From contig JAKSUR010000007.1 in NCBI GenBank assembly GCA_024408765.1, forward strand, positions 1-39,310: a DNA stretch of 39,310 nucleotides. The letters are read 5' to 3'. A program made the position numbers and the translations under genes. Of the stretch, positions 19,533 through 19,847 are shown piece after piece (position 1 is the stretch's first letter; the number at the start of each line of letters is the position of its first letter). Under the pieces are notes generated by a model that did no database searches, had not been told where the DNA came from, and was given only the letters and a program-made list of their open reading frames with translations. This stretch comes from a bacterium (lineage in GTDB: Bacteria; Cyanobacteriota; Vampirovibrionia; Gastranaerophilales; Gastranaerophilaceae).

Positions 19533-19616
19533 GCCGATGTGATGGAATTGGTAGACGTGTCAGACTCAAAATCTGGTGTAGGCAACTACGTGTCGGTTCG
19601 ACCCCGACCATCGGCA
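19533..19616 (+). tRNA. tRNA-Leu (anticodon CAA)
   Basis: A class II tRNA of 84 bases. The acceptor stem pairs GCCGATG with CATCGGC and the discriminator base is A. The anticodon stem-loop is TCAGA-CTCAAAA-TCTGG, which places CAA at the anticodon and reads UUG (leucine). A long variable arm (TGTAGGCAACTACG) precedes the T-arm GTCGG-TTCGACC-CCGAC. CCA is not encoded. The long variable arm and CAA anticodon fit leucine rather than serine or tyrosine. Confidence 0.96.
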
Positions 19617-19818
19617 GATAAAAGGGCAGTTTTTACTGCTCTTTTTTTAGTATAAATATTAAGCTTGTAATAAGGGGGAGAACCGACACGAGTCGGTTCG
19701 AGCGACCTGTGAGCAGAGTGCGGAGGACTTTTCTTTAGAAGAAACGAAGTTTCTGAAAAGAAAATCCGAAGACACGTTTAATGCGAACAGGTCAAGACAC
19801 CCCGACCATCGGCAGATA
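19601..19818 (+). repeat. Duplicated tRNA-Leu 3' end, second copy split by a hairpin insert
   Basis: The 20 bases ACCCCGACCATCGGCAGATA at 19601-19620 (T-arm, acceptor and four flanking bases) recur exactly at 19799-19818. The 10 bases GTCGGTTCGA of the T-arm (19592-19601) recur at 19692-19701. If bases 19702-19798 are removed, the second copy reads as an uninterrupted tRNA-Leu 3' end. The 97-base insert has matching inverted ends (GACCTGT at 19704-19710, ACAGGTC at 19787-19793) and an inner hairpin GAAAC-GAA-GTTTC at 19741-19753. Just before it is another hairpin, GAACCGAC/GTCGGTTC (19680-19699). No recombinase is nearby. Confidence 0.8.
19621..19648 (+). terminator. Terminator of tRNA-Leu
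   Basis: Stem GGGCAGT/ACTGCTC with a TTTT loop, extended by A-T pairs and followed by a run of seven T. Confidence 0.88.
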
Positions 19819-19826
19819 GTTAAATC

Positions 19827-19847
19827 CTTAGGGATATAATCCCTAAG
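19827..19847. repeat. Perfect 9-bp inverted repeat
   Basis: CTTAGGGAT, loop ATA, ATCCCTAAG, eight bases after the second tRNA 3' copy. No T-run follows, so it is not a standard terminator; it may be part of the same structured element. Confidence 0.6.

Follow-up and report, generated by a model that had tools for sequence, protein, structure and literature searches.

The closest described counterparts of the feature analysed here are the RtT RNA/rttR repeats of Escherichia coli tyrT (RF00391; rtT in the following). In the literature searched, they are described only as a small RNA freed from the tRNA transcript. They are arranged as tandem units of ~178 bp, each of which contains a copy of the tRNA 3' end, and a repeat reads tRNA-Tyr..GGTTCGA, then ATCCTTCCCCCACCACCA-...-GGGGAAGGAT-GA-GAAGC...AAGGTTCGA-core, then ATCCTTCCCC.. 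at the next tRNA end. GGGGAAGGAT pairs with ATCCTTCCCC as the 10-bp helix P1, which is included in the Rfam consensus; this consensus has also been described to contain a tandem GA motif (PMC7657543). A tRNA-Lys unit of equal plan, annotated as RtT, is located 5' of nadA in E. coli. RtT RNAs of other gammaproteobacteria adjoin tRNA-Asn and tRNA-Lys genes (PMC4986893), and RtT has also been reported without a tRNA context (PMC8092127).

The window, i.e. the whole stretch of 39,310 nt that was analysed, is contig C81 of a 1.58-Mb genome (G000). Behind its tRNA-Leu gene lies what is probably a copy of a small insertion unit that integrates in the tRNA T-loop between positions 58 and 59. The locus is composed as follows:

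19533..19616, + strand: complete tRNA-Leu (CAA) (ARAGORN, Rfam)
19592-19601, + strand: T5' half of the tRNA-Leu, GTCGGTTCGA
19602..19616, + strand: proximal tRNA 3' part from position 59, CCCCGACCATCGGCA; start of the unit
19624..19648, + strand: hairpin and T-run resembling an intrinsic terminator (sequence)
19674..19677, + strand: P1a, GGGG, partner of P1b at 19800-19803 (fold, covariation)
19678..19679, + strand: GA spacer (GA at this spacer in 34 units)
19680..19687, + strand: P2a, GAACCGAC, reverse complement of the T5' half (sequence, fold)
19692..19701, + strand: P2b and GA, copy of the T5' half, GTCGGTTC-GA (sequence, fold)
19702..19799, + strand: mobile structured core of type A, 98 nt, GCG ... 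AAGACA
19704..19714, + strand: outer helix of the core, 5' strand, GACCTGT-GA-GC (tandem GA)
19783..19793, + strand: outer helix of the core, 3' strand, GC-GA-ACAGGTC
19800..19814, + strand: distal, displaced tRNA 3' part, CCCCGACCATCGGCA; its first 4 nt are P1b
19815..19818, + strand: GATA, the last bases common to proximal and distal copies before they diverge

An exact 20-base repeat of the tRNA-Leu end (19601-19620 and 19799-19818, spacing 198) has a chance expectation near 1e-6 within 400 bp by a rough estimate. An earlier note on this DNA had recognised this repeat, the T-arm half repeated at a spacing of 100, the inverted ends GACCTGT/ACAGGTC and the 9-bp hairpin 3' of the insert (19827-19847), all of which are present. 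Two of its values have to be corrected: The insert comprises 98 nt (19702-19799) instead of 97, and the deletion of 19702-19798, thought to restore an exact tRNA end, would leave one A too many. The insert terminates (...AAGACA) in the A with which the 20-base repeat begins; its match to A58 is a coincidence. A hairpin does precede the insert, but it has 8 bp (19680-19699) and not 9, and it belongs to the element. The stretch 19674-19701 reads GGGG-GA-GAACCGAC-ACGA-GTCGGTTC-GA. The minimum-energy fold of the locus is a three-way junction of P1 (GGGG/CCCC), P2 (GAACCGAC/GTCGGTTC) and P3, the core, and the GA spacer can form tandem G.A pairs with the GA at 19700-19701. For 19677-19820, the fold reaches -50 kcal/mol versus -31.9 +/- 3.5 kcal/mol for shuffles (z -5.2). 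The window unit is ~198 bp long, and units elsewhere have ~178-210 bp. It contains no ORF of at least 80 aa and is too short for an integrase gene; the lack of a recombinase near the element, also reported before, is confirmed.

This arrangement recurs behind many tRNA genes. A tRNA gene is located upstream on the same strand of 74 of 128 distinct copies, mostly 61-107 bp away, and 25 anticodons are represented. Behind the core, the adjacent tRNA's own sequence is repeated from position 59 to its 3' end. The fetched loci, which are enriched for the element, contain 123 tRNA genes, and for 81 of these a copy of the gene's own 14-nt 3' segment lies within 420 bp; with the segment of another isotype as control, the number is 0-1. 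The core end directly precedes 85 of 92 tRNA 3' copies. The unit comprises, in this order, a replacement tRNA 3' end, a terminator or linker, P1a-GA-P2a, a hairpin, a T5' copy followed by GA, and the core. Since P1a-GA-P2a is complementary to both T-arm halves, P1 and P2 form and the core branches exactly at their junction. This complementary strand is a further part of the unit that the earlier description lacked, and it covaries with its tRNA. In 41 distinct units with the GAGAA motif, pairing between the upstream strand and the tRNA 3' part is found at its first four positions in 90, 95, 83 and 76 percent. Pairing of the upstream strand with the T5' half exceeds that of shuffles beyond the invariant GAAC/GTTC, both in the 41 units and in an independent version of the comparison. 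Guide covariation amounts to 4.17 versus 3.46 +/- 0.11 for P1 and to 1.93 versus 1.30 +/- 0.11 for P2, and 0 of 1000 shuffles reach either value.

According to the earlier note, the locus might be an integration scar in tRNA-Leu into which an unrelated hairpin of the MITE or REP type was inserted later. Core and dock are in fact partly separable, because cores insert elsewhere independently, and one dock without a core was found (L257). However, tRNA 3' copy, terminator, hairpin and core form one recurring unit, and the full layout is repeated behind dozens of tRNA genes, each time with a guide strand that fits the tRNA in question. This contradicts a scar with a later MITE, which has become highly improbable. 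The term mobile hairpin is adequate for the core, which also moves independently, but not for the whole unit. Integration at a tRNA 3' end and a dispersed structured element that targets T-arms, the other elements of the former reading, are borne out.

Both 3' copies are usually identical up to the discriminator base or a few bases off and then diverge. In four loci (L069, L087, L103, L118), CCA is present in the distal copy but lacking in the proximal one. SurE-anchored synteny revealed no orthologous site and no empty/filled pair for the tRNA-Leu of the window, and the tRNA-Arg(UCU) locus, whose orthology is indicated by a common upstream gene, was therefore used instead. It is empty in six species (L405, L407, L415, L418, L423, L425), where a T-run is found 3' of the tRNA. 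Eight further species have one or more units or a remnant of one: Filled sites are L400, L401, L403, L404, L408 and L429; L409 contains a truncated and L427 a degenerate unit. L429 has a terminator behind the proximal 3' end and its native T-run behind the distal one, and in filled loci of relatives, a terminator is likewise located 3' of the proximal tRNA end. Since orthologous sites are either empty or filled and displaced native ends keep CCA or the native flank, comparison of the alleles shows that the unit enters the tRNA gene between positions 58 and 59, substitutes its own 3' end for the native one and brings a terminator with it. By the logic of these orthologous sites and those in E. 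coli (see below), the proximal CCCCGACCATCGGCA (19602..19616) is read as unit-borne. The distal one (19800..19814) would be the native tRNA-Leu end in the insertion model. A single copy without variation, which the earlier note would have counted against mobility, is not what the relatives display: There are many copies and both empty and filled sites.

A regenerated tRNA and a displaced 3' fragment are also the signature of tRNA-targeting genomic islands, as described in PMC4383910. The units might be remnants of a large island or prophage that used a tyrosine integrase to enter the tRNA gene and of which attL and attR were left after loss of the cargo. An IMG/VR viral contig that carries a tRNA-Val type unit (L343) and units that enclose ORFs would be compatible with such an origin. 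In contrast to islands, units measure ~200 bp with nearly constant size, contain no integrase and usually no cargo, and the guide-core layout recurs everywhere. We therefore consider a remnant of this kind very unlikely and retain the small insertion unit.

The E. coli repeats can be compared at the same level. The tyrT unit is found in 4678 of 5426 complete genomes at 1 to 10 places per genome. The tyrV gene is empty in UPEC_U013 and filled in C10, whose tyrV unit is present in 1921 of the 5426 genomes. An empty E. coli tRNA-Tyr is also found in L347; in NZ_CP099754, the unit-free tRNA-Tyr runs straight into the sequence that elsewhere follows the last unit. Judged by their sequences, these filled and empty alleles represent an insertion polymorphism inside the species. 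The Gastranaerophilales units resemble rtT in the tRNA 3'-end copy that closes each unit, in the tandem arrangement with a unit length of ~178 bp, in a P1 that pairs with this copy, in the GAGAA..TTCGA frame and in a structured core that ends at the 3' copy. Both differ in the core sequences. Furthermore, the E. coli sites seen are tRNA-Tyr and tRNA-Lys, whereas the Gastranaerophilales units combine 25 anticodons with exchangeable cores and nested insertions. RF00391 has no match in the window (E<=1) or in eight relatives (E<=10), and R1, a covariance model of the core built from 41 copies, has no convincing match in E. coli. Because neither model convincingly crosses the groups, the window element is not filed under RF00391. 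By architecture, window element and rtT are nonetheless of the same kind, and rtT is reinterpreted here as a putative insertion unit. The likeness may be due to either common descent or convergence. In UPEC_U013, an island with fatty acid desaturase/sterol desaturase genes is located 3' of a tRNA-Tyr and an RtT unit (L346); in ST131, such an island is found next to narI (L348).

Alternatively, the units could be functional RNA genes like the RtT sRNA that co-evolve with their tRNA and are copied by tandem duplication and gene conversion without any mobility. P1 and P2 would then prevent the extra 3' end from misfolding the tRNA. The strongly conserved structure and the arrays of identical units agree with this explanation. 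In addition, RtT was detected as an RNA that is set free from a tRNA operon, as cited in PMC4986893, and Northern signals were obtained in Actinobacillus (PMC4986893). Tandem arrays by themselves could be a product of RecA. We consider an immobile RNA gene unlikely. Against it speak empty orthologous sites, element-borne terminators, displaced native ends with CCA, nearly identical cores behind different tRNAs of different species, and the nesting of cores in one another and in hairpins outside tRNA genes. The units could be maintained as RNAs, RtT being termed an sRNA.

The core family is widespread in the relatives of the window genome. In BLASTN searches, the core was detected in 27 of 34 genomes of the genus, including the window genome itself, and in 0 of 23 outside it. 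With R1, it was found in 157 of 289 genomes of the class, among the best ~14 candidates scored per genome. Compensatory changes occur at 13 of 18 pairs, and a hand tally of G.U versus A.C in the core points to neither strand as the folded one. The carriers are herbivore-gut Candidatus Gastranaerophilales, nearly all from one family; three genomes belong to two other families of the order, in one of which copies are also located 3' of tRNA-Asp. No description of these units was found in the open-licence literature searched. Four MAGs titled Acinetobacter, Bacteroidales or Muribaculaceae that carry the element (L139, L173, L126, L205) are probably mislabelled or mixed bins. The window genome contains further core copies on contigs C30, C48 and C26 and partial copies elsewhere. 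C30 and C48 begin within arrays of ~180-bp units that end in truncated cores, and longer arrays are therefore probably hidden by assembly breaks.

Cores with 97-99% identity are found at different tRNAs in different species, e.g. in G000 (tRNA-Ser type) and G017 (tRNA-Asp). Core identity does not cluster by genome, as the observed value is reached in 338 of 2000 shuffles. This comparison shows that cores have been exchanged between tRNAs and between species. A second type, core B, has ~112-150 nt and reads GGATAGCGA ... GAGCGTGGA (16 sequences, e.g. L094, L275, L280, L109, L196, L220). It shares both its ends (GCG-stem ... stem-AAGACA) and its docks with core A. In L109, core B is nested in core A between GCGGA and GTGCG. 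Core A is found within unrelated hairpins, in L264 between GGGA and GAGGG and also between ACTA and AATG, and two cores can be arranged back to back (L066, L275). At tRNA-Arg(UCU), L408 contains a third core type in an otherwise standard unit. In four genomes, a core lies in a conserved non-tRNA context, GCGTTTTAAGACT..GGTTCG.GTCC / GCAGTTTTAAGAG (L067, L124, L140, L147). A Rfam scan of the non-tRNA insertion sites yielded only tmRNA and 5S matches above threshold.

On insertion, the native 3' end is pushed to the far side of the core. The tRNA 5' part is joined to the replacement 3' end of the unit, so that the tRNA stays whole. Cores also move independently, entering the P1/P2 junction as well as further cores and hairpins of other kinds. 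We infer that a trans-acting recombinase might recognise the folded single strand (P1-P2-core) and exchange it with the tRNA T-arm at the 5' edge of P1b, in a geometry like that of an integron attC site. The T-arm copy and the complementary strand would set tRNA specificity, and arrays could then grow by repeated insertion or unequal crossing-over. With integron cassettes, the units share one anchored site, arrays, a folded site with a basal stem spanning the junction and occasional ORFs. Unlike in integrons, the anchor is a tRNA T-arm and the unit rebuilds the tRNA; no pair of the attC boxes RYYYAAC/GTTRRRY was noticed by eye at the junction. A further proposal is tentative and rather doubtful: The units would belong to a hitherto undescribed recombination system, in which a recombinase of the host or of other origin inserts in trans a folded nucleic acid whose own strand matches a chosen T-arm, the tRNA being rebuilt each time. 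They would then be comparable to integron cassettes, but programmable and anchored at tRNAs, in two phyla or more, with rtT as the best-known relic. Should the target be set by the complementary strand, the units would amount to a system for site-specific insertion of DNA that chooses its target by base pairing. The rtT repeats are placed in a wider class of tRNA-end-replacing insertion units, whose structural logic would be one strand complementary to both T-arm halves. Complete E. coli genomes offer natural alleles with and without a unit, with which the question can be addressed experimentally in a laboratory strain.

Several candidates for the mobilising enzyme were rejected. An origin from IS110 bridge RNA is not supported, as PF01548 is not above the cut-off in ten element-rich genomes or in the window genome. 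Reverse transcriptases, required for a retroelement or group II intron, are absent from G000, G312, G281, G277, G266, G181 and G044. RAYT is not supported as the sole agent, since the element-rich genomes G277, G208, G266 and G185 lack a Y1 transposase. Sampled recombinases of G000, G185, G277 and G281 reach at best 158.8 bits with the integron integrase model TIGR02249 (cut-off 265). Neither IS110, nor a reverse transcriptase, nor a dedicated integrase is common to all element-rich genomes tested. In the element-rich G185, no more than two tyrosine recombinases are encoded, and XerC/XerD models are the closest for both. Together with the negative results for IS110, reverse transcriptase and RAYT, this leaves Xer proteins, a family outside those tested or a mobiliser that has vanished.

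REP/BIME sequences, which are associated with RAYT transposases, and Rickettsia palindromic elements are small non-coding hairpins that are dispersed over genomes and also found within genes. The units are similarly small, dispersed and non-coding, and in L342, an IMG/VR viral contig, a core lies within a reading frame. They differ in having a tRNA dock and a guide strand, and RAYT-type genes are missing from four element-rich genomes. In L079 and L264, GTAGGTTGGGTGAAACCCAACA repeats are REP-like with a GTAG foot, and several genomes encode RAYT-sized Y1 transposases. Enlarged units of 730 bp or ~1.2 kb (L104 in G021:C11, L094 in G024:C13) each enclose an ORF and resemble gene cassettes behind a tRNA. 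The ORF in L104 encodes 113 aa and appears GIY-YIG-like from reading its sequence; the other ORF of this pair encodes 222 aa on the opposite strand.
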